This document shows positions 24,156 through 36,008 of a stretch of DNA of 64,000 nucleotides, piece by piece. This stretch comes from Candidatus Zymogenaceae bacterium. Lineage in GTDB: Bacteria > Desulfobacterota > Zymogenia > Zymogenales > Zymogenaceae. Within the stretch, counting starts at the first letter, position 1; every line of letters begins with the position of its first letter. Where the stretch lies: contig JAFGAS010000086.1 of assembly GCA_016933535.1 (NCBI GenBank), forward strand, positions 1 to 64,000. The letters are read 5' to 3'. Below the pieces are notes generated by a model, which searched no databases, was not told the DNA's origin, and was given only the letters and a program-made list of their open reading frames with translations. A program made the position numbers and the translations under genes.

Positions 24156-26060
24156 CTATGTCCCACCGCCGGGCGACAAGGCATCGATCCCCAGTTCAAA
24201 AATCCTCTCCTTCGTCGGATATCCGGTATCCCGGTCCCAGCCCATCTCGTCATAGAAGTCCGACCGCATTCGGTAGAAACCGGCTTTTTCTATGCCGAGC
24301 TTTTCTCGATAGGGTCCATCCTTCATATTCTGGGTAAATTTTTCGGGGAGCCGGTCGTCATCTTCGGTAAAGCCTTCGCGGTGGTTATAGATACGTGAAA
24401 GGGTGATGGCCCGCTCGCCACCCTGCATGAGCTCCGATATATCCGCATCCCAACCGGTTATCGCGTTAATCATTTCTACGAGCCGTTCAATAGGCATCGA
24501 ACCCCGGGGAGCAAATCCGAAATGGCAACAGCCCAGACAATCCTGCATTCTCCAGTATCGGGACGATATCGCAAAATTACGGGCCTTGTTTCGGGTCATT
24601 TCGAATATATCGGCGGGATGCTCAACACCAAGGATTTTCAATCCAAGGAACGTCGCCGACTGACCGTCCGCAAAAAAAGGGTCGTGCGGAGATACCATGT
24701 GATCGGCGCCGATATCCGATACCGCGTATCCGATACCTACCCCGGTCTTTATGCGCGGGTCGTGCATCGGGACTTCCTGCTTTTTAACCGTGATCAGGTA
24801 TCTCTCGGCCCCTTTACCGATCTTTTCGGCCGCCCGGCAAGACCCCTCCGCAAGGAGATCGCCGATACCCTCTCGTTTTGCAATGAGTTCTATGGCCGAA
24901 AGGAACGCCTTGCTGTTGCCGAAAACAAGTTCGATTCCCCCCGTGTCTCCGTCGGTCAAGAGACCCTCTCCGTAGCACTTCATAGCAAAGGATATCGTCA
25001 TGCCCAGCGAAATCGTATCCAATCCGTACCGATTTGCCAGCTCGTTACCCTTGGCTATGACGTTAAAATCGTAAATCCCGCAGTTAGAGCCCAGTGCCGC
25101 GATCGTTTCATATTCGGGACCCCCGTACCGGGAGTTAACCGTCAGGGCGCTTTCCTTTACGGAAACGACGCGTTTGCACCTGACGGCGCACGCGTAGCAC
25201 CCTTTCCTCCCGGTGAGGATCTGCTCGTTATAACGGTCACAAAAGAGATCGGTGCTTTGGCCGGTTACCCCTGTTTCCCAGTTATCGGTCGGCAGGGCCC
25301 CGAACCCCACGAGGGAATCGACCGTCGCCGAGGTCCCGTATTCGTAAAGCGTCCACCCCTGCTTGTTTTCCTTGAACGTTCGCGCAAATTCCTTTGTAAT
25401 CTCTCTGAGCCTTTCCTCATCGGCGATCGGTATCCTGTTTGTTCCCCTGACCGCCACCGCCTTCAGGTTCTTGCTCCCCATAACGGCGCCGAGGCCGTTT
25501 CTCCCATTGTAGTGTCCGAGCTCGTTTCCGATATTGGCAAACCGTACAAGCCGCTCCCCTCCCGGACCGATGATAAGCACCCGGGTCTTGGTGTCCTGCA
25601 GCTCTTTTCTTATTTTTTCCTCGGCCTCCAGAGTCTCAAGCCCCCAGACCCCCCGCCCGTCCCGTATCTCAACCGTATCGTCCCGTATAGATATATAAAC
25701 CGGATCGGCCGCCCTGCCCTCCACAATAAGGGCGTCGTATCCCGCAAATTTCAACTCCGGTCCCCAAAACCCCCCCGCTTCCGATGCACCAAGCCCCCCC
25801 GTCAAGGGGGATTTTGACACCGCCGTAAAACGGGGTATTGCCGGTCCCGCCGCGCCGGTAAGCGCACCCGTAGCGAAGATGATAGTATTTTCGGGAGAAA
25901 GCGGATCAATACCGGGGCGGGTCTCTCGGAGGAGAAACGGGAGGGCAAGTCCCCTTCCCCCGAGGTATTTCCTCACTACATCGTCGTCGATTTGTTCGAT
26001 TCGATGGCCCCCATCGGTAAGATTTATTCGCAGAATCCTATTCCGGTATCCGTAGGCCAC
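24156..26060 (-). CDS. Aldehyde ferredoxin oxidoreductase (AOR) family tungsto-enzyme
   Basis: MAYGYRNRILRINLT, GGRGLALPFLL, GPAIPRFTAVSKSPLTGGLGASEAGGFWGPELKFAG, CYACAVRCKR; GTG start immediately after the upstream MoaD-like TAA. Confidence 0.95.
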   Translation of the reverse strand: MAYGYRNRILRINLTDGGHRIEQIDDDVVRKYLGGRGLALPFLLRETRPGIDPLSPENTIIFATGALTGAAGPAIPRFTAVSKSPLTGGLGASEAGGFWGPELKFAGYDALIVEGRAADPVYISIRDDTVEIRDGRGVWGLETLEAEEKIRKELQDTKTRVLIIGPGGERLVRFANIGNELGHYNGRNGLGAVMGSKNLKAVAVRGTNRIPIADEERLREITKEFARTFKENKQGWTLYEYGTSATVDSLVGFGALPTDNWETGVTGQSTDLFCDRYNEQILTGRKGCYACAVRCKRVVSVKESALTVNSRYGGPEYETIAALGSNCGIYDFNVIAKGNELANRYGLDTISLGMTISFAMKCYGEGLLTDGDTGGIELVFGNSKAFLSAIELIAKREGIGDLLAEGSCRAAEKIGKGAERYLITVKKQEVPMHDPRIKTGVGIGYAVSDIGADHMVSPHDPFFADGQSATFLGLKILGVEHPADIFEMTRNKARNFAISSRYWRMQDCLGCCHFGFAPRGSMPIERLVEMINAITGWDADISELMQGGERAITLSRIYNHREGFTEDDDRLPEKFTQNMKDGPYREKLGIEKAGFYRMRSDFYDEMGWDRDTGYPTKERIFELGIDALSPGGGT

Positions 26061-26363
26061 TTACCCTCCAGTTACGATGGGATATATTTCTACCAGGTCG
26101 CCGTCTTTTAGTGGACAGGGAACAATGAGCAACGATTCAACGGCCTTCTTGTTGACGAGCACCAATCCCACTTCACCCCGATCGATGGGCAGCCCCTTAA
26201 TTATATCCTTAATGTCGGCCGCCTGAAACGTCAGGCTTTTTCTCCCTTTCAGATATCTTCTGAATGAACCGAACAGGCTTACTTCAACCCGTGCACAGGG
26301 TACCTCGGTTGTCATGTTCGTCTTACCCTTGTTGCCGTCGTAGACCTTGATATCCAACGGCAA
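26061..26363 (-). CDS. MoaD/ThiS family sulfur-carrier protein
   Basis: Beta-grasp size, ends DLVEIYPIVTGG; probable start at the internal ATG (MTTEV...). Confidence 0.85.
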   Translation of the reverse strand: MPLDIKVYDGNKGKTNMTTEVPCARVEVSLFGSFRRYLKGRKSLTFQAADIKDIIKGLPIDRGEVGLVLVNKKAVESLLIVPCPLKDGDLVEIYPIVTGG

Positions 26364-26366
26364 TGT

Positions 26367-27608
26367 TTAATGCTGAGCCTTCAGGCTCTCGATGAACGCC
26401 TCTATCCTCGTCCTGGTCTGCGCCTCGGAAAATGACCGCTCGTCGGTCATATCGGCCTCTACCATGATCGTCGGAATATCAAGGTCCTTCTGGATTATCT
26501 TCGCGATGTCCAACTGACCCAGCGAATATGGTTTGCAGGAGCGGTTTGAATGCATGACGAATCCGTCGGCCGAGTATCGTTTAATGAGCTGCTTTATTTC
26601 CGACACCATCATCTCTATGTCGATATTGAGGTATATCTCCGTATAGGATCGAGACATCGTCTCGATAAGGTTCTCGGGATCGAGACACGCCTTTGCCCAG
26701 GCGTTTGTATAGGTATCGGCCACGAGGCACGCCGAGTTCGAGGCGAAGAGCTCCGAGAGGGGCCGAAGCGCAAACCAGACCGGAATATTGTCCCAGAGAA
26801 GCCGATATTTCTCGTCATCAACGGCCCCTATTCCGTCGGTTATCCGCCGCTTGAGTTCCGCAAGTAGCCCTACGTAAAAGTCATTGCACTGCGCCGTGCC
26901 CCGTAAGGTGACGATAGGGGCGATAAAGAAAAAGGCGTCAAAACAACTCATGGGGGCCGGCCGGTGTTCACACGTTGAGAGGACTTCGTTCCAGAGGCTC
27001 ACACCCTCAAGGGATAACTGTCCCACTTCCTTGAGGCGGTCTCTGTCCATCTTCTTGCCGCACTGATCCTCCAGGAATCGGATATATTCTTCCATCTGGC
27101 TCCTTACGTAGCGATGGCCCGCCTCCGTCTTATGCTGATGGATAAAGGGAGTATCGATGAGATACATCGGAACATCAAAGAATCGGGCCAGTATCTCGTA
27201 CCACTTCGTGACGGTCCCGCATATATTGTTGCATGCGATCAGAAAGTCGGGCTTGGGAAGTCCTCCGGGGATAGGACTTTTCTTGGTGACCGCACTTCCG
27301 ATGTCCCCCCGAAAATAAGAGCAGAGGTCCCGGGAATAACCCATGTCTTCGGAAATCCCACACATCTCCACGCTCATCCTCGAGGCTCCCAGCATCGCCC
27401 CGTGATTCTCCGGGTAGATGGGGATGATATCCATTGCGTGCAATGGTTCCACCGGTCCCCCGGAGGTGATCCACGCGATTTTTTTGCTCCCGCTTGCCTC
27501 GGCGATCTTTGATTCGGTGTAGTATCCGGTCATCAACTCGCGCATTGCCCTGGCCGATTGGAATTTCTTCTTTTCCTTTTCGGGATCCTTTATTTTTTCA
27601 TTTGCCAT
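26367..27608 (-). CDS. 2-hydroxyacyl-CoA dehydratase / benzoyl-CoA reductase-like subunit (HgdB/BcrB-type)
   Basis: WITSGGPVEPLHAMDIIPIYPENHGAMLGA, FLIACNNICGTVTKWYE, GFVMHSNRSCKPYSLGQ. Confidence 0.9.
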   Translation of the reverse strand: MANEKIKDPEKEKKKFQSARAMRELMTGYYTESKIAEASGSKKIAWITSGGPVEPLHAMDIIPIYPENHGAMLGASRMSVEMCGISEDMGYSRDLCSYFRGDIGSAVTKKSPIPGGLPKPDFLIACNNICGTVTKWYEILARFFDVPMYLIDTPFIHQHKTEAGHRYVRSQMEEYIRFLEDQCGKKMDRDRLKEVGQLSLEGVSLWNEVLSTCEHRPAPMSCFDAFFFIAPIVTLRGTAQCNDFYVGLLAELKRRITDGIGAVDDEKYRLLWDNIPVWFALRPLSELFASNSACLVADTYTNAWAKACLDPENLIETMSRSYTEIYLNIDIEMMVSEIKQLIKRYSADGFVMHSNRSCKPYSLGQLDIAKIIQKDLDIPTIMVEADMTDERSFSEAQTRTRIEAFIESLKAQH

Positions 27609-28752
27609 GGGCGTCTCCTATCATCTCCATGAATGCCTCGATACGTGTCTTTATCTGCCCGAGCGACGGATTGTCCATCTCCGTCTCAAGGAGTAAATGG
27701 GGCATCTTCAGTTCATCTATCGATTCCTTCAGGTATGGATAATCAAAAGAGTGCGGATCGCAGAACTTGATCATTAAGAAAATGACTCCCTGTGCACCGC
27801 TGTCCCGGATCATCTCTTTGAGGTATATGCCGCGGTCAAACATGGGGTTGTGTTTAGCGGCACATATTGGTCGCTTTATGATGCGATCGGCTATGGCCTG
27901 GATCGGGTTAGCACTCTTTTCGTCGGCGTTTACGATAAAGTACCGTGATCCGGTGCACATATCATCGCCGACAACGGTGCCTCCCCCGGCCTCGATGTAA
28001 TCGTATATTTCATTGAAGACACAGAGGTTTCCTACGAGAAAAACTCGAATCTGATGCCCCGTTTCGGCCGTATCTTCGATGTCAGACAACAGGTCTGCCA
28101 TGAGCAGATTATGTTCTTCGACCGGCATGAACATCGCCCCCTGAACACAGTCGTTGAGGGCGCCGGAACTAATTATTGCGGGATTTTTCTTCTTTGCCTC
28201 GTAGAGGCGCGTGAGATTGGACCTCATGATATTGTATAGCTTTATCGCCTCATTGAGGGAGTCGGCGGTAATCTCGCGCCCGGTGTAGGTCTCTATCTTC
28301 CCGACGAAAGAAGTAAGCTCTTCGATCAGGTAGGCTCTCGCGCTTTCGGTCTGGAGCTTTACGGGAAGCACGATATCCGCATGAAATGAATAGGCCGTGT
28401 TTATTCTCCATATATCCGAGAGCCGCTGTATCGAGTCGCACGTATGCGGGAAAACCGCCCCTTCCAGGAAATCCAGCCGGTCCGTCAGGGCCATATCCAG
28501 CCCCGTGCGAACGAGCGAGCACGAGTAGCTCTGGAGGTGGGCATCGGAACAAACGACGCTCTCATTGCGGCCCATAATTCTAAAGGGAATTCCTCCCGCG
28601 GCATGGATTATCTCTTCTGGAGTGTAGGTGCAAAAATAGCCGAAAACGGGCCGCTTATAGCACTCCTTATAGCCTTTTACGGCTGCGACGGGGTCTTCTA
28701 CGGTATTCCTCATGATCTTAAGTGCTTCGTCACGTGTCATCCGGTACCTCAT
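27598..28752 (-). CDS. 2-hydroxyacyl-CoA dehydratase / benzoyl-CoA reductase-like subunit (HgdC/BcrC-fold partner)
   Basis: FGYFCTYTPEEIIHAAGGIPFRIMG, YSCSLVRTGLDMAL, FPHTCDSIQRLSDIW, FCDPHSFDYPYL; 11-bp overlap with downstream subunit. Confidence 0.9.
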   Translation of the reverse strand: MRYRMTRDEALKIMRNTVEDPVAAVKGYKECYKRPVFGYFCTYTPEEIIHAAGGIPFRIMGRNESVVCSDAHLQSYSCSLVRTGLDMALTDRLDFLEGAVFPHTCDSIQRLSDIWRINTAYSFHADIVLPVKLQTESARAYLIEELTSFVGKIETYTGREITADSLNEAIKLYNIMRSNLTRLYEAKKKNPAIISSGALNDCVQGAMFMPVEEHNLLMADLLSDIEDTAETGHQIRVFLVGNLCVFNEIYDYIEAGGGTVVGDDMCTGSRYFIVNADEKSANPIQAIADRIIKRPICAAKHNPMFDRGIYLKEMIRDSGAQGVIFLMIKFCDPHSFDYPYLKESIDELKMPHLLLETEMDNPSLGQIKTRIEAFMEMIGDAHGK

Positions 28753-28780
28753 TTATTAGGCATGCATAGTATATCCGCTA

Positions 28781-29725
28781 TCACGTTAACGTTTTAAGTC
28801 GCAGATTACCAAATTCATCGGGCCCGACCTGAAAATGGCTTCCCCCCGTCTTTTTTGAAAGGATCTGGAGTATCTCTGGGGACTCTTTCTTTCCGATATA
28901 TATGGAATGAACGGCTATTCCGTCGGTCTGGGCCAGCTTGATCTCCCGCGATATCTCTCTATCCCCTTCCGTCGGCCTGCCGTCGGTGATGAATACCACG
29001 TGTTTTATCCGGTCGTAGACGGCCCTGAATTCCTTTATCGCATCAAGGAGCGGGAGCTGGTAATTCGTAAAACCGCTGCACCGGCACTTGGAGGCCATAT
29101 CCCCAATCATCGCATAGGACCGATTGAAAAATACCCTGCTCTTGAGAAACTTGGTTGACTGGTGGTTGAATTCAAGATAACCGATCCGCATTCGCCTTTT
29201 TCGGGCGATTCTGATAAGCCCCAGGATGAGCATCGATGACCACTGTGCGCGGCTCCCGGTCATGGAGGAACTGATATCCCTGATCACGGCCAATGCCCCT
29301 CCCTTGAGCTTTCGCTTACGCAACACCGCTATGGGCATTTTCGGGTTGAGGTGGGAGAGCCACATCGCCGAATCGACCGGATCCACGTCGTCAAACAGGG
29401 AGAAGTCTTCCAGACGGGACCAGCTCCTCGGCGAGCCGCCGTAGTCTTTCATCAGGTCTTCAGTTTTTTGGACTATATTGCCTTCGATGACCTTGAGGAT
29501 CGGATAAACGTCGGTGAGAGATTCCTTATTTACCTCTTCTTCTCCCCGATCGATGATATCTTCTCCCGTCTTTTCTCTGGTGGGGAGAAGGTCCTTTACA
29601 ACGAAGGATTTATCGGGGAACTGGTCGAAATCTTTATCCGAGAGTTCCGTCGGCTCCGCCTGGCCTTCGTTTATCTCCTGGGGCTGTGAGTCTTCTTCAC
29701 GTTCCTGGAATTCGGGTGGATTCAG
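28781..29725 (-). CDS. VWA-domain protein (MoxR partner); frame open from 29725, with no ATG/GTG/TTG until 29452
   Basis: MIDAS DISSS, FTN and TDGRP motifs; upstream in-frame acidic segment LNPPEFQEREEDSQPQEINEGQAEPTELSDKDFDQFPDKSFVVKDLLPTREKTGEDIIDRGEEEVNKESLTDVYPILKVIEGNIVQKTEDL read by hand from the minus strand. Confidence 0.8.
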   Translation of the reverse strand: MNPPEFQEREEDSQPQEINEGQAEPTELSDKDFDQFPDKSFVVKDLLPTREKTGEDIIDRGEEEVNKESLTDVYPILKVIEGNIVQKTEDLMKDYGGSPRSWSRLEDFSLFDDVDPVDSAMWLSHLNPKMPIAVLRKRKLKGGALAVIRDISSSMTGSRAQWSSMLILGLIRIARKRRMRIGYLEFNHQSTKFLKSRVFFNRSYAMIGDMASKCRCSGFTNYQLPLLDAIKEFRAVYDRIKHVVFITDGRPTEGDREISREIKLAQTDGIAVHSIYIGKKESPEILQILSKKTGGSHFQVGPDEFGNLRLKTLT

Positions 29726-29735
29726 TTTTTTTTTT
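29722..29735 (-). promoter_or_regulatory. Candidate recoding site: A10 run with -1 slippery heptamer A_AAA_AAC directly before moxR UGA
   Basis: Minus strand ...GTC GAA AAA AAA AAC TGA; the -1 frame reads directly into the VWA ORF. Confidence 0.55.
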
Positions 29736-30666
29736 CGACGAGGTCCACCAGGATCTCGTCAATCCGCTGCGCCACTTCCGGAGGAACGCGGAAGGTCATG
29801 AGGTATTTCAGAACGGAAAGATCACCCGGGACGACCTCGGTTCTCCCTTCAAGGATTGCCTTTGCCTTGAGGATACTGATCGCCTTAACAAGGAACGTCC
29901 TGTCGGTCAAAAGTGAATTAGTTTCATTGAGATTGAAATTCGTGATGAGGTGTTCAAGGAACGTGATCAACTGCTGTTTGACCTTCGCCCCGACCTTTAT
30001 ATCCAGAAGATACCGGCCGGGTTGTTGGAACAGGTCACCCTTAAAACCTTCGACCGTATCCTTATCGAAGATGTGCTCCGTATAGTAATCCATTACCGAT
30101 ATCGCGTCTTCCCAGTTTCCCCGGTTGATAAGTCCGGACGATTTGAGCTGGATCGTGAAACGGTCAAGGTTTGCTAGGTCCAAGGGCTCATTATAGTAGT
30201 CGTCCTGGGTCGGGTTGCTGGTCGCTATTGCCGTTAAGAGCGGAAGCCTCGCACCTTTATACTCCCGCTCGTTGAGGAGCCTCAGCATGATATTGAGGGC
30301 TTCACCCGGCGCCCGGGTAATGTCATCGAGTACCACCAGCTGCGCCGTAAGGATACCTCCGGGTATGAGCCGCTGGCTGATAAGCTCACCCCCGCCGTTA
30401 CCCGACTGAGGCTCCCTGCAAATGATATAGTCGCCTATCAATTCCGACAACCTGGTGTCGCGGTGGAACTGGTAGAAGTAAAAATTGAGATTGGCGGCCT
30501 TTGCGGTTAGCTCGGCAAGCATCGTCTTTGCCGTTCCCGGAGCACCTTCGATATAGACGTGTTCCCTGGCAATCAGCGCAAGGAGGAGCCCCTCCTTGAT
30601 GTCGTTATGTCCGACAACGTATCGGTCCAGAATCTCCTTGATTTTCACGGCCGTATTGAGCATCAT
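29722..30666 (-). CDS. MoxR-type AAA+ ATPase
   Basis: EGAPGTAKTMLAE Walker A, LVVLDDITRAPGEALN Walker B, IATSNPTQDDYYNEPLDLANLDRF; likely start at ATG 30666/30663 because the promoter overlaps the ORF-track start at 30726. Confidence 0.92.
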   Translation of the reverse strand: MMLNTAVKIKEILDRYVVGHNDIKEGLLLALIAREHVYIEGAPGTAKTMLAELTAKAANLNFYFYQFHRDTRLSELIGDYIICREPQSGNGGGELISQRLIPGGILTAQLVVLDDITRAPGEALNIMLRLLNEREYKGARLPLLTAIATSNPTQDDYYNEPLDLANLDRFTIQLKSSGLINRGNWEDAISVMDYYTEHIFDKDTVEGFKGDLFQQPGRYLLDIKVGAKVKQQLITFLEHLITNFNLNETNSLLTDRTFLVKAISILKAKAILEGRTEVVPGDLSVLKYLMTFRVPPEVAQRIDEILVDLVEKKN

Positions 30667-30697
30667 CCCAATCCGCATAATGGTGACATGAATGGTT

Positions 30698-30726
30698 AGT
30701 ATACTAAATTCATCCCCATTTATCAA
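30698..30726 (-). promoter_or_regulatory. Putative sigma70 promoter for moxR operon, TTGATA-N17-TATACT
   Basis: -35 at 30726-30721, -10 at 30703-30698, 17-nt spacer. Confidence 0.65.
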
Positions 30727-30733
30727 GCTAAAT

Positions 30734-31831
30734 CTATAGCTCCGAATACTCCATGTTGAAGGCCTCGGCCACGGCTTGATAGGTCAGTCTTTTATTGAGG
30801 ATATTAACGCCCTTCTTGAGCGCCGGGTCATCATTGATCGCCCCGTCCAATCCCTTGTCGGCAAGCGCCAGCGCATATGACAGCGTGGAATTGGTCAGGG
30901 CAAACGTCGAGGTCCGCGGAACTGCCCCCGGCATATTGGCCACCGCGTAATGTACAACGTCATCGACGATATACGTGGGTTGGCTATGCGTTGTCGGTTT
31001 GGTAGTCTCGGTACAGCCGCCCTGATCCACAGAGATATCGACGATTGCCGATCCCTTTTTCATCCGCTTGATCATGTCTCTTGTTACGAGTTTTGGCGCC
31101 TTCGCGCCGGGGATAAGGATCGTTCCTACGACGAGGTCGGCCGACATAACCTCTTCGTCGATATTGGCCCCGTTGGACATGATCGTTACCACATGCCCCC
31201 CCATGACGTCGTGGATGTATCTGAGCTTGGCCGGATTGATATCGAGGATGCTGACCCTGGCCCCCATCCCAACCGCCACAAAACAGGCGTTTGAGCCGGC
31301 GATTCCCGCACCCAGGATAACGACCTTGGCCGGCGGCACGCCCGACACTCCCGAAAGGAGGATCCCCTTACCTCCGCCGATCGATTCCAAACACCGTGCC
31401 CCCATCTGTATAGAAAGCCTCCCGGCCACTTCGCTCATCGGGGCCAGCAGCGGCAGCGATCCGTCGGCAAGCTGGATCGTCTCATAGGCGACCGCCTTGA
31501 CGTCGGTGGCAAGCAGCTTCTTGGTCAATTCAAGGTCGGCCGACAGGTGAAAATAGGTAAACAGAATGTGGTCTTTGATCAGGCCGAATTCGGGACCGAG
31601 CGGCTCCTTGACCTTTATGATCATCTCCGCCTGATCCCAGACGTCTTCCTTGGTTGGGAGTATCCGAGCGCCCATCGCCATGTATTCGTCGTCAAGCAGC
31701 CCGCTGCCGACACCCGCCCCCTTTTCCACCAATACCGTATGGCCGTGCCCTACAAGCGCGGAAACTCCCGCGGGCGTAAGGGCAACGCGATTCTCTTCGG
31801 CCTTAATTTCTTTGGGAACTCCTACCTTCAT
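30734..31831 (-). CDS. ald: Alanine dehydrogenase
   Basis: MKVGVPKEIKAEENRVALTPAGVSALVGHGHTVLVEKGAG, ILGAGIAGSNA, VDISVDQGGCTETTKPTTHSQPTY. Confidence 0.97.
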   Translation of the reverse strand: MKVGVPKEIKAEENRVALTPAGVSALVGHGHTVLVEKGAGVGSGLLDDEYMAMGARILPTKEDVWDQAEMIIKVKEPLGPEFGLIKDHILFTYFHLSADLELTKKLLATDVKAVAYETIQLADGSLPLLAPMSEVAGRLSIQMGARCLESIGGGKGILLSGVSGVPPAKVVILGAGIAGSNACFVAVGMGARVSILDINPAKLRYIHDVMGGHVVTIMSNGANIDEEVMSADLVVGTILIPGAKAPKLVTRDMIKRMKKGSAIVDISVDQGGCTETTKPTTHSQPTYIVDDVVHYAVANMPGAVPRTSTFALTNSTLSYALALADKGLDGAINDDPALKKGVNILNKRLTYQAVAEAFNMEYSEL

Positions 31832-31865
31832 ATCGTGTAACCCCTTTAAGAATATCTATGGTTTT

Positions 31866-33248
31866 TTAAGTCTGTTTTGAGCCCGCTCCCCCCGGTCTCC
31901 GACGACGGGGGACGCGTTGCTCCATCCGTTTTTCATAGGCTGATCTCAGGCGAGGAGGCACAAGAAGCGTATAGATAAGACAGACTACAAAGACTCCCGC
32001 CATTATAAACAGGACCGTTATGTCCTCTGCATAGATTCCCAGCAACAGGATCATAAAAAAAACTACGGATATTATCGGGATAATCAGCCCGCCGGGCACC
32101 CGATAGGGCCTGTCGGTATCCCGCATGGTGAATCGAAGCCGGATAACCGACAGCGCCATTACCGTGTATATAATTACCTCGATGGCCGCGGCGACTAATA
32201 TCAGCCTCATGTACTTACCGGAGAGATGGCAATAGATAGATATCAGGAGCGATAGGGTGAAGGCGAAAAGTATGGCAAACAATGGGGTGGCGTACCGATT
32301 GCTTATTTTTGAAAAGACCCTCGGCAGGACGTTATCCCGACCCATCGCGTAAATGAAACGGGAAAAGTTCAAGAATCCGGCATTATATGACGTCATCGAT
32401 GCGAGGCAGCTCATCACAACGAATACGTAGATGCCGGCCTTTCCGAACAGTGCATTGCCGAAGATGATGTGCGGTATGTTTGACACAGCAAGCGTTTCCT
32501 TTGAAACCACCGCGATCATCCCCGTAATAAAGATCGCGTAGGTTATGCAGAGCAGGCCGATGGCGATCATCATTCCCTTCGGGATTATTTTACTATCGGT
32601 GACCTCTTCGGCCAACGGCGTTACCCACTCGAATCCAACGTATAGAAATACGCCGACGGCCGCCGCTTGAAAGACATTGGTTATACCCCCCGTATTGAGC
32701 ATCTGAGGAACCGAAACGCCCGACGTCTTAATCGCGTAAATCCCGATTACTATCATAAAGCTGAGCATCGTATACGTCATAATGTCCTGCGCCAGACCGG
32801 CGAGGACGACTCCTCTCAGATTGATGAGTGCGATCACGCCCAGGAAAACCAGGACCCATACAAAAGGAGGTACTCCCGGCAGTACGGTCCCGATGACGCT
32901 GCTCAAAATGTGGGTCTCCGGGCCTACCATGGCTATGGCACACCCGAGGTAGAAGGCCCCGATGGTGATGGCCGCCTTCTCGCCAAAGGCGCGCTCAATG
33001 AAGAGTCGAATACCGGCCGCCGACGGGTACATTCCGTTGAGCTCAGAAAAACACATGGAAGACAGGATACACATGATTCCCGCCACGAGTATTGATACCC
33101 AGGCGGATTGGCCGGCGACCAGGACCGCCACCTTGACCCCCGCCGCGTAGCATGAAGTCGCCATCGCCATACCGGCGCTCGTGGCAATCACCGTCCTGAG
33201 CGTCACAACCTTCTTCAGACCGGTCATAATGCGTCCCCGTCCTATCAA
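31866..33248 (-). CDS. APC-superfamily amino acid permease
   Basis: 460 aa, about 12 TM segments, GMAMATSCYAAG near N-terminus; paralogue of 36181..37614. Confidence 0.88.
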   Translation of the reverse strand: MIGRGRIMTGLKKVVTLRTVIATSAGMAMATSCYAAGVKVAVLVAGQSAWVSILVAGIMCILSSMCFSELNGMYPSAAGIRLFIERAFGEKAAITIGAFYLGCAIAMVGPETHILSSVIGTVLPGVPPFVWVLVFLGVIALINLRGVVLAGLAQDIMTYTMLSFMIVIGIYAIKTSGVSVPQMLNTGGITNVFQAAAVGVFLYVGFEWVTPLAEEVTDSKIIPKGMMIAIGLLCITYAIFITGMIAVVSKETLAVSNIPHIIFGNALFGKAGIYVFVVMSCLASMTSYNAGFLNFSRFIYAMGRDNVLPRVFSKISNRYATPLFAILFAFTLSLLISIYCHLSGKYMRLILVAAAIEVIIYTVMALSVIRLRFTMRDTDRPYRVPGGLIIPIISVVFFMILLLGIYAEDITVLFIMAGVFVVCLIYTLLVPPRLRSAYEKRMEQRVPRRRRPGGAGSKQT

Positions 33249-33271
33249 ATAATATCATGGACGATACTTCC

Positions 33272-33310
33272 GGGACGCGCCCATTCAAACCTTCCGGACG
33301 GGCGCGTCCC
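33272..33310. repeat. Perfect 11-bp GC-rich inverted repeat GGGACGCGCCC...GGGCGCGTCCC
   Basis: Arms 33272-33282 and 33300-33310 in the intergenic gap. Confidence 0.75.
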
Positions 33311-33339
33311 ATTGTCCAGGAGCTGCGATAACATCCTGC

Positions 33340-34116
33340 CTATGCCTGTTTAATCCAGGAGTCGATCGTGAGCATGAAACTACCGAGGTCCTTGCCGTAC
33401 TCCGGAGATCCCTCCTGCACAAGGTATCCATCCATGATCGCCTGCACCAGATCCACTTGATTTGTCAGGACCTTGATGGCGTTGTCCACACCGTTAAATT
33501 GCATGTCTATAAACGGACGCCGGCGCGTGTAGAGTCCTCTGCCCGCTTTCGTCTTTCCGAATTTTATGCGCAGATAGGCATACGGACCGTCAGGCAGGCA
33601 CGACCACTGGATGACTCTGTCAGGCATCTTTTCGGTGAATTTATTAAACTCCTCATAGCCCGCCTTATTCATCTGGGATAGCCCTGAGCTGAGCATGTAA
33701 AAGAGGAGCTTCACTTTAAGTGTCTTCTTCTGCGGATCCTTGGGGAGTTTTGTCGGTAGCAACAGCGTCAGGCCCAGAAGCAGCGGGACGACTTTCAGAA
33801 GAATCCCTATTTTTGTAAATCCTTTGATCTTGGGAACGGCGGCCTTACCCGCAAAAAACGCGTTGAGCTGTTTTGCGCTTTTAAAAATAAACGCGAGATC
33901 AGGATTATCGTCCCGCTCGAATGTCGTCTGAGGAATCCCATCCTCGAATTTCAGCTGGGTGACGAGGTCATCGTTTCCCTTTACCTCAAACTGCACTATC
34001 TTGTTGAAACCACGGTATTTTTCGCGCATCTTCGGATCGTCTTCGATCAAGACTTTCACGAGGGGCACCGCGGCCCGAAGCATGATCCTTGCAAGGATAT
34101 AGTCTTTGTCGGGCAT
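33340..34116 (-). CDS. SCP2 sterol-binding-domain-like protein
   Basis: Pattern DLAFIFKSAKQLNAFFAGKAAVPKIKGF resembles SCP2 core. Confidence 0.55.
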   Translation of the reverse strand: MPDKDYILARIMLRAAVPLVKVLIEDDPKMREKYRGFNKIVQFEVKGNDDLVTQLKFEDGIPQTTFERDDNPDLAFIFKSAKQLNAFFAGKAAVPKIKGFTKIGILLKVVPLLLGLTLLLPTKLPKDPQKKTLKVKLLFYMLSSGLSQMNKAGYEEFNKFTEKMPDRVIQWSCLPDGPYAYLRIKFGKTKAGRGLYTRRRPFIDMQFNGVDNAIKVLTNQVDLVQAIMDGYLVQEGSPEYGKDLGSFMLTIDSWIKQA

Positions 34117-34131
34117 AATGCCTCCTTTTTG

Positions 34132-35151
34132 CTAAAATTCGTCCTGCCAGTCTTCGTCTTCCTCGAACTCCTTGCCCATAACTTCCCGCACCGTATCGAT
34201 GATACCCTCGGAATCAAGCTTGTAGTGGTGGTACAGGTCATCCGGATATCCGACCGGCGAAAATTCGTCGGGTATTCCTACCCGCTTGAAGGCGCACCCC
34301 TTTCCGAGGTCGGCTATTACTTCGGCCACCGCACTGCCAAGTCCACCGATGACGTTGTGATCCTCAAAGGTTATAATCCTTCTCGTATCCATCACGGCCT
34401 TCTCAATCGCCTCGCGGTCGATCGGCTTGATGGTGTGCATATTGATGACCCGAACCGATAGGCCGTCGTTTTTCTTGAGGAAGTCTGCCGCGTCCACCGC
34501 CCCCACCAGCGGTGTACCGCAAGCAATGACGGTAACGTCGGTGCCGGGCCGCATCTCTCTTGCCTTACCGATCGTAAAGTCGAATTTATCATCCGTGTAA
34601 ACTCGCGGCTCAAATCCACGACCGATCCTTATGTAGACGGGACCCTTCCAGTCAACGGAAGCCTGCACCGCCTTGGCCGTTTCAAATCCGTCGGCCGGGG
34701 CGATGACGGTCATGTTCGCAAACGACCGAATGATTGCCAGGTCTTCCGTGCAGTGGTGGGTAGTTCCCGCCTGTCCAAATGATATGCCCGAGTGAGTCGC
34801 GATGATCTTGCAGTTAAGCTTCTGGTAGCAGATATCGGTGCGCACCTGCTCACCGGCCCGCATCGACACAAATACCGCAAACGTCGAGACAAAGGGGACA
34901 AAGCCGGCCAATGCCAGGCCGGCCGCAACCCCGAACATGTTCTGCTCGGCAATCCCCACGTTGAAAAAACGGTCGGGATACTTCTCCCCGAATTTACCGA
35001 TTTTGGTCGATTTGGCCAGGTCGGCGCTCAATGCCACGATCTCGGGTCGCTGGCCTCCAATCTGGGTCAGGACATCACCGTATATCTCGGCCGCCGTCAT
35101 CTTATCGGCGTCAAGGATTGTATATGTCAAGCCTCCAACTTGCTCTGCCAT
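34132..35151 (-). CDS. Transketolase family protein, C-terminal (Pyr plus C) subunit
   Basis: DLAKSTKIGKFGEKYPDRFFNVGIAEQNMFGVAAGLALAG, ATHSGISFGQAGTTHHCTEDLAIIRSFANMTVIAPAD. Confidence 0.95.
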   Translation of the reverse strand: MAEQVGGLTYTILDADKMTAAEIYGDVLTQIGGQRPEIVALSADLAKSTKIGKFGEKYPDRFFNVGIAEQNMFGVAAGLALAGFVPFVSTFAVFVSMRAGEQVRTDICYQKLNCKIIATHSGISFGQAGTTHHCTEDLAIIRSFANMTVIAPADGFETAKAVQASVDWKGPVYIRIGRGFEPRVYTDDKFDFTIGKAREMRPGTDVTVIACGTPLVGAVDAADFLKKNDGLSVRVINMHTIKPIDREAIEKAVMDTRRIITFEDHNVIGGLGSAVAEVIADLGKGCAFKRVGIPDEFSPVGYPDDLYHHYKLDSEGIIDTVREVMGKEFEEDEDWQDEF

Positions 35152-35165
35152 GGCGTACCTCCCTA

Positions 35166-36008
35166 TTACTTATTGGCGTACATCTTATCGATGGATTCAA
35201 TTGCCTTTTTCGTCTTGTCAGCATCAAGGCCGCCGTAGTGCCAGGCCGCGACGTCCTCCATAAAGTCAACGCCCTTGCCCTTTATAGTATGGGCGATGAT
35301 AACACACGGGCCATCCTTATAGGTGATAGCCTCCTCGATTGCCGGGCACAGCTTCGTATAGTCGTGGCCGTCCGAATCAATGACCTTCCACCCGAACGCT
35401 TCCCACTTCTTACCCAGGGGCTCGATACACATGATATCCTCACAGGCCCCGTCGATACAATATTTGTTGTTATCGATAATCCCGATGAGGTTGGAAAGCT
35501 TGTAGTGACAGGCCGCCATTGCCGCCTCCCAGATGGTCCCTTCGTTCTGTTCGCCGTCACCCATGATGCAGTAGGTCAGCCAGTCCTTCTTCTTCAACCG
35601 CGCCCCAAGGGCCAGCCCTACGGAGATAGGCAGGCCGTGCCCAAGGGACCCCGTCGAGGCATCTACTCCCTTTACCTTAAGGCCGTCCAAGTGCATGCCA
35701 AATGGAGAACCGGTATGGTTGAAATCTTTAAGTAGCTCCTTGTCGAAATACCCTTTATCGGCCAGTATCGGGGCATACCCAACCCCTCCATGTCCTTTGG
35801 AGAGGATAACGCGGTCCCGATCGGGCCAATCGGGCCGTTTCGGATCGATGTTAAGGTACTTGTAATAAAGAGCCACTAGAATATCCGCCTGTGATAGAGC
35901 TCCTCCGGCATGCCCCCCGCCGGACCAGATCAGCGTCTGAATGATATCTTTTCTGATCTGATGGGCCTTCTCTGTCAGGGTCTTCAATTCCTTGTCGGAA
36001 AGTGCCAT
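35166..36008 (-). CDS. Transketolase, N-terminal (TPP-binding) subunit
   Basis: SGGGHAGGALSQADILVALYYKYL, LSKGHGGVGYAPILADKGY, GSLGHGLPISVGLALGARL, IMGDGEQNEGTIWEAAMAA. Confidence 0.95.
   Translation of the reverse strand: MALSDKELKTLTEKAHQIRKDIIQTLIWSGGGHAGGALSQADILVALYYKYLNIDPKRPDWPDRDRVILSKGHGGVGYAPILADKGYFDKELLKDFNHTGSPFGMHLDGLKVKGVDASTGSLGHGLPISVGLALGARLKKKDWLTYCIMGDGEQNEGTIWEAAMAACHYKLSNLIGIIDNNKYCIDGACEDIMCIEPLGKKWEAFGWKVIDSDGHDYTKLCPAIEEAITYKDGPCVIIAHTIKGKGVDFMEDVAAWHYGGLDADKTKKAIESIDKMYANK

Follow-up and report, generated by a model that had tools for sequence, protein, structure and literature searches.

In ChlD proteins, an AAA+ domain is followed by an acidic linker and a VWA domain, and in systems such as ChlD the long AAA+ subunit takes a seat in the ring. 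The poly-A recoded chlD or Mg-chelatase gene, which encodes an AAA+ part and then a VWA part, is the closest precedent for the locus described here. In these frameshifted genes (fs-chlD), a slip site of A7 to A11 lets one gene encode both a short AAA+ subunit and a longer, fused one (PMC3711429, PMC9227772). This recoding has been treated as ribosomal in later work (PMC3711429, PMC9227772). Recoding is also known for dnaX, and the longer product of the two-ORF dnaX genes needs the shift (PMC5009743, PMC3711429). For MoxR-family ATPases with a separately encoded VWA partner, the data on NorQD fit a ratio of six NorQ to one NorD (PMC9976466). In the present work, a moxR gene and a vwa frame were studied in the window, that is, the whole 64,000-nucleotide stretch of DNA under analysis. 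According to the sequence comparisons, the two very probably form one gene that is recoded at a run of adenines, whether by the polymerase or by the ribosome.

Junction Sequence and Protein Parts

The features of the locus are listed in Table 1. The 3′ end of moxR was read directly from the minus strand as CTC GTC GAA AAA AAA AAC TGA, and the ending in a run of ten A reported in the initial annotation was seen on this reading. The gene starts at ATG 30666 or 30663, and its C-terminus, EKKN followed by the stop, comes directly after the run. The VWA frame reads over the junction as CGT CGA AAA AAA AAA CTG AAT CCA. It lies at −1 relative to moxR, and its open stretch begins 8 codons ahead of AAA AAA AAA and reaches position 28781, which confirmed both the −1 position and the passage through the A10 that had been described. 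The 91 codons without ATG, GTG or TTG were also found as claimed, and the first ATG was that at 29452. The A10 at the junction was the sole A10 of the 2.94-Mb assembly when both strands were counted. All 18 A9 sites of the same genome were inspected, and none linked two long frames over the run.

Table 1. Features of the moxR–vwa locus and its neighbours, in window coordinates.
Feature	Position	Strand	Evidence
AOR (aldehyde ferredoxin oxidoreductase) family protein	24156..26060	−	AFOR_C 3e-120, AFOR_N 6.7e-75
Small MoaD-like ORF preceding AOR	26061-26363		assigned by eye, without a Pfam match
Second HGD-D family protein	26367..27608	−	PF06050 2e-81; conserved order
HGD-D (2-hydroxyglutaryl-CoA dehydratase D-component) family protein	27598..28752	−	PF06050 3.9e-83; conserved order
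VWA part, −1 frame, 314 codons from CTG 29725	28781..29725	−	translation, PF00092 9.5e-8, conservation
91 codons without ATG/GTG/TTG (acidic linker and conserved segment)	29453..29725	−	conservation, selection
A10 slip run (G AAAAAAAAAA C)	29726..29735	−	sequence read; single A10 of the genome
moxR, MoxR-family AAA+ ATPase, 314 aa	29722..30666	−	ORF, Pfam, orthologs
Alanine dehydrogenase family protein, upstream neighbour	30734..31831	−	Pfam; conserved order

The MoxR protein matched the Pfam families bpMoxR (1.4e-18), AAA_5, AAA_3 and AAA_lid_8. The VWA part consisted of a variable acidic linker, a conserved segment and then the VWA domain, in which the DxSxS MIDAS motif occurred as DISSS. 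With the Walker A motif GAPGTAKT in MoxR and this MIDAS motif in the adjoining VWA domain, the features of a MoxR–VWA chaperone pair were present. The Walker B motif of MoxR proteins is usually Asp-Glu; here, residues 113–120 read LDDITRAP with Asp-Asp, and the orthologs kept it. The AlphaFold models were built from two-sequence alignments, were poor (mean pLDDT 44 and 39), and were kept out of the fold searches.

Conservation of the A-Run at the Frame Transition

The moxR–vwa pair was found in each of the four genomes examined from the class, which represent three genera. The three relatives (G001, G002 and G003) were 72–77% identical to the window in MoxR and 73–75% in VWA. Among 391 other genomes of the phylum, no MoxR ortholog was found at E ≤ 1e-30 and no VWA ortholog at the cut-offs used. 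A wider search of contigs gave a single match, which corresponds to G003, and a search of plasmids gave none. No natural in-frame MoxR–VWA fusion, the control case, was found.

The comparison of the junction in homologous pairs, which had been proposed as a check, placed an A-run at the same point in all four genomes. The run was A10 in the window, in G001 (ATT GAA AAA AAA AAG CTG) and in G002 (GAC GAA AAA AAA AAG TAG), and A9 in G003 (GAC GAA AAA AAA AGT AGA), where the stated contig coverage is 5.3x and the A9 could be a miscall. The fusion frame needs one A more or two A fewer for A10, and two A more or one A fewer for A9; as encoded, the fusion was out of frame in every genome. The frameshift boxes of the four genomes overlapped solely within the run. 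The TGA at which the VWA frame of G001 opens takes its A from the start of the run, and the moxR stop codon abuts the 3′ end of the run in the window and G002; hence, a frame change possible in all four genomes is confined to the A-run.

The recurrence of this layout bears on the two alternatives named in the initial annotation, an indel in the assembled homopolymer and initiation at the CTG, both of which were strongly disfavoured by the orthologs. An assembly or sequencing indel would mask either a single uninterrupted moxR–vwa gene or a pair of ordinary genes. In its favour, errors are frequent in homopolymers, and each of the four assemblies comprises many contigs (86 for that of the window). 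However, the same out-of-frame layout was shared by four separate genomes from three genera, and no start codon can arise from an indel, so that the version with two ordinary genes fails regardless. The indel was rejected on the recurrence of the arrangement, and its probability is considered next to negligible.

The background of A-rich codons was also explored. AAA made up 31–41% of the Lys codons. Only 1 of the 21 invariant Lys columns of both proteins was AAA in all four genomes, and none of the 29 invariant Glu columns outside the run was GAA in all four. These values indicate that the kept GAA AAA AAA exceeds the codon-usage background; in other words, on this comparison the A-run is conserved at the frame transition beyond codon-usage expectation. 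G001 and G002 contained three and five A10 runs, respectively, the junction being one of each, and the remaining ones looked mostly intergenic except for that in dnaX of G002. Four of the five runs of G002 lay on one 119-kb contig (C32; positions 24152, 43039, 60392 and 64849), two of them being the moxR–vwa junction and dnaX and the other two looking intergenic.

The run length differed between G002 and G003, which belong to one genus, and A9–A10 runs are hypermutable (PMC1088944). Both points would suit phase variation, in which replication slippage alters the run in some cells and toggles the fusion genetically. Nevertheless, all four genomes were out of frame for the fusion despite purifying selection on the VWA frame, and the neighbouring genes encode metabolic enzymes rather than surface antigens. 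Phase variation is thus judged very unlikely.

Selection on the VWA Frame Upstream of Start Codons

Conservation of the protein in the VWA frame began at about codon 21–25, and codons 25–47 were 65–91% identical as protein. For codons 3–47, the comparison of G002 with G003 gave a dN of 0.18 and a dS of 1.53. The dN/dS ratio over the same codons was about 0.12–0.15 where dS was estimable; dS was saturated in many pairs, and the ratios refer to the computable pairs only. Before the shared Met, the changes between G002 and G003 at codon positions 1, 2 and 3 numbered 6, 3 and 39. Ahead of codon 48 or 52, ATG, GTG, TTG, CTG and ATN were all missing from the VWA frame of G002 and G003, and the four genomes shared no start-codon position on the 5′ side of the conserved segment. 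The last ~72 of the 91 start-less codons were kept at the protein level and can be reached only via moxR. Judging by the substitution pattern, selection acts on the VWA frame at the protein level even ahead of any start codon.

These data also apply to independent translation of the VWA part, either by re-initiation at CTG 29725 or by a start at ATG 29452. The CTG overlaps the moxR stop in the window (CTGA), and ATG 29452 was present in all four genomes. However, the codon at the position of the CTG was GTA, GTA and GCT in the orthologs, two of these had no start-like codon in the region noted above, and the ATG lay within the conserved protein stretch rather than at its beginning, with selection extending well upstream of the ATG. 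The remark that a start at ATG 29452 would drop an N-terminal region agreed with this upstream conservation. Initiation at the CTG or the ATG was rejected in view of the upstream selection and the start-less frames of the orthologs, and it is regarded as highly improbable. Selection upstream of the starts, along with boxes that overlap only in the A-run, points to production of the VWA part by recoding. The VWA part appears to be made as a MoxR–VWA fusion of ~628 aa, and standard decoding would yield free MoxR. The fusion beside free MoxR proposed in the initial annotation was thus supported by the four-genome conservation and the selection upstream of the starts.

Polymerase Slippage and Ribosomal Frameshifting as Candidate Mechanisms

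Two routes to the fusion had been offered, RNA-polymerase slippage and a dnaX-style −1 ribosomal shift, of which the former fitted the data better and the latter worse. The ribosomal route would use programmed −1 frameshifting on A_AAA_AAA or A_AAA_AAC (or AAG) and would give the same fusion, as for E. coli dnaX and fs-chlD. The slippery heptamers claimed for the junction did occur: three of the four genomes have A_AAA_AAA and A_AAA_AAC/G correctly phased for the shift. Poly-A runs promote ribosomal shifting too: those of the Mg-chelatase fs-genes gave 63, 40 and 10% frameshifting in E. coli with A11, A9 and A7 (PMC3711429), and in one proven IS case A_AAA_AAC acts without an established stimulator (PMC4066793).

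Several observations stand against this route. A −1 shift in the A9 ortholog meets a stop at once (KKK-stop), and the ribosome would need to shift by +1 or −2. This ortholog, on its contig of 5.3x stated coverage, is the one case whose sequence distinguishes transcriptional from translational slippage, and a miscalled A9 would weaken the argument. The SD-like GGTGGA was present in the window as described but absent from the three orthologs, so that the claim built on it carries no weight. When the regions after the run were folded for the four genomes, z values ranged from −2.4 to +1.0 with no common fold, and only the downstream fold of G003 was somewhat stable. A conserved downstream structural stimulator was rejected because no consistent stable structure was found across the four genomes. 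Stimulation of the E. coli dnaX type was not upheld, since the SD-like element and the hairpin were both unconserved. Furthermore, tRNA-Lys(CUU) was present in all four genomes, and the corresponding situation in Thermus has been tied to polymerase slippage in a review (PMC5009743). A −1 ribosomal shift is therefore considered unlikely, though it keeps a real share of the probability. Polymerase slippage fits better because the SD-like element is unconserved, no downstream structure is conserved and no −1 shift leads to the fusion in the A9 ortholog; it is held, with reasonable rather than high confidence, to be the specific mechanism of recoding.

The dnaX genes of the relatives contained runs of A9 in G001 (L101), A10 in G002 (L066, 1501–1510) and A10 in G003 (L067, 1102–1111), followed at a short distance by stop codons in the two alternative frames. 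Such an arrangement of run and stops is the Thermus slippage layout (PMC3711429), and it speaks for polymerase slippage at moxR–vwa. In the genome of the window itself, dnaX (L100, C85:235296-236930) had no A-run of at least 7, which counts against that argument, and this gene may not make a short product by slippage on an A-run.

Gene Neighbourhood and Proposed Mechanism

The gene order was kept in the relatives, running from the transketolase halves through the 258-aa protein, the amino-acid permease and alanine dehydrogenase to moxR and vwa, and then to the two HGD-D proteins, AOR and a metallophosphoesterase. The products of the neighbours in the relatives were assigned by eye from their likeness to the window proteins, and the short contig of G003 shows the order from alanine dehydrogenase onward only. 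The cluster conserved in the class spans 24156-36008 and includes the permease, alanine dehydrogenase, the two HGD-D proteins, the MoaD-like ORF and AOR. The 258-aa protein (33340-34116) had no Pfam match at E 1e-5, and it adjoins the permease in the relatives too. The conserved neighbours suggest that the client of MoxR–VWA may be among the HGD-D or AOR enzymes; the HGD-D protein next to the VWA part is a possible candidate.

In the proposed mechanism, standard decoding of the A10 template would give free MoxR of 314 aa, which ends right after the run. RNA polymerase would slip on the A-run and produce mRNAs with a changed number of A, and A11 (or A8) transcripts would join the frames into MoxR–linker–VWA of ~628 aa. 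The majority of transcripts would supply MoxR, the ring-forming subunit, whereas the fusion would be a minority subunit seated in the MoxR ring. The level of slippage may set a low, fixed ratio of VWA to MoxR, and the resulting machine may service the adjacent HGD-D or AOR enzymes. The stoichiometry and the client in this scheme are drawn from other MoxR–VWA systems by analogy. The full proposal is put forward tentatively, at less than an even chance: slippage at the single conserved A-run would set the ratio of plain to VWA-bearing subunits, the mixed AAA+ hexamer built from them would serve solely the maturation of the HGD-D/AOR enzymes encoded next to it, and the MoxR family would have evolved independently the one-gene, two-subunit trick of chlD.

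Comparison with Known Systems

No recoded MoxR–VWA gene was reported in the open-access literature searched for MoxR, VWA and frameshifting. Automatic annotation would likely split such a locus into two genes and shorten the VWA protein. The locus shares with fs-chlD the form of one locus annotated as two genes, with an AAA+ ATPase followed by an ORF in the −1 frame (PMC3711429; PMC9227772; PMC5009743). The layout of AAA+, acidic linker and VWA also resembles ChlD. However, the ATPase here was of the MoxR type and not ChlI/BchI. Pfam gave only the four families named above and no Mg_chelatase (ChlI/BchI) domain, and the PDB sequence relatives of MoxR were 2r44 (MoxR-like), RavA and Midasin, not BchI. 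The CobN/ChlH large subunit (PF02514) was found in none of the four genomes of the class; it is missing in some early-type fs-chlD genomes as well (PMC9227772). Membership of the chelatase family was rejected on the lack of the Mg_chelatase domain, the MoxR-like PDB relatives and the lack of CobN/ChlH. In further contrast to fs-chlD, the neighbours here were HGD-D and AOR genes, and no downstream stimulatory structure was found.

Thermus-type dnaX (A9) and the two-ORF dnaX fs-genes (A10) likewise have a sense-strand run of A9 or A10 with slippage. The gene is a different one, and the slipped product of single-ORF dnaX is shorter, whereas the slipped product here would be longer. In NorQ/NorD, CbbQ/CbbO and RavA/ViaA, a MoxR AAA+ ring likewise works with a VWA partner that the neighbouring gene encodes. 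The VWA protein of those systems is a separate polypeptide; here, it would exist only as a fusion to MoxR, in an amount governed by slippage. The comparison suggests that single-gene coding of an AAA+ ring protein in both plain and VWA-bearing forms arose more than once, in a ChlD type and a MoxR type, and that it gives cells a simple, testable way of fixing a substoichiometric ratio of VWA to AAA+.
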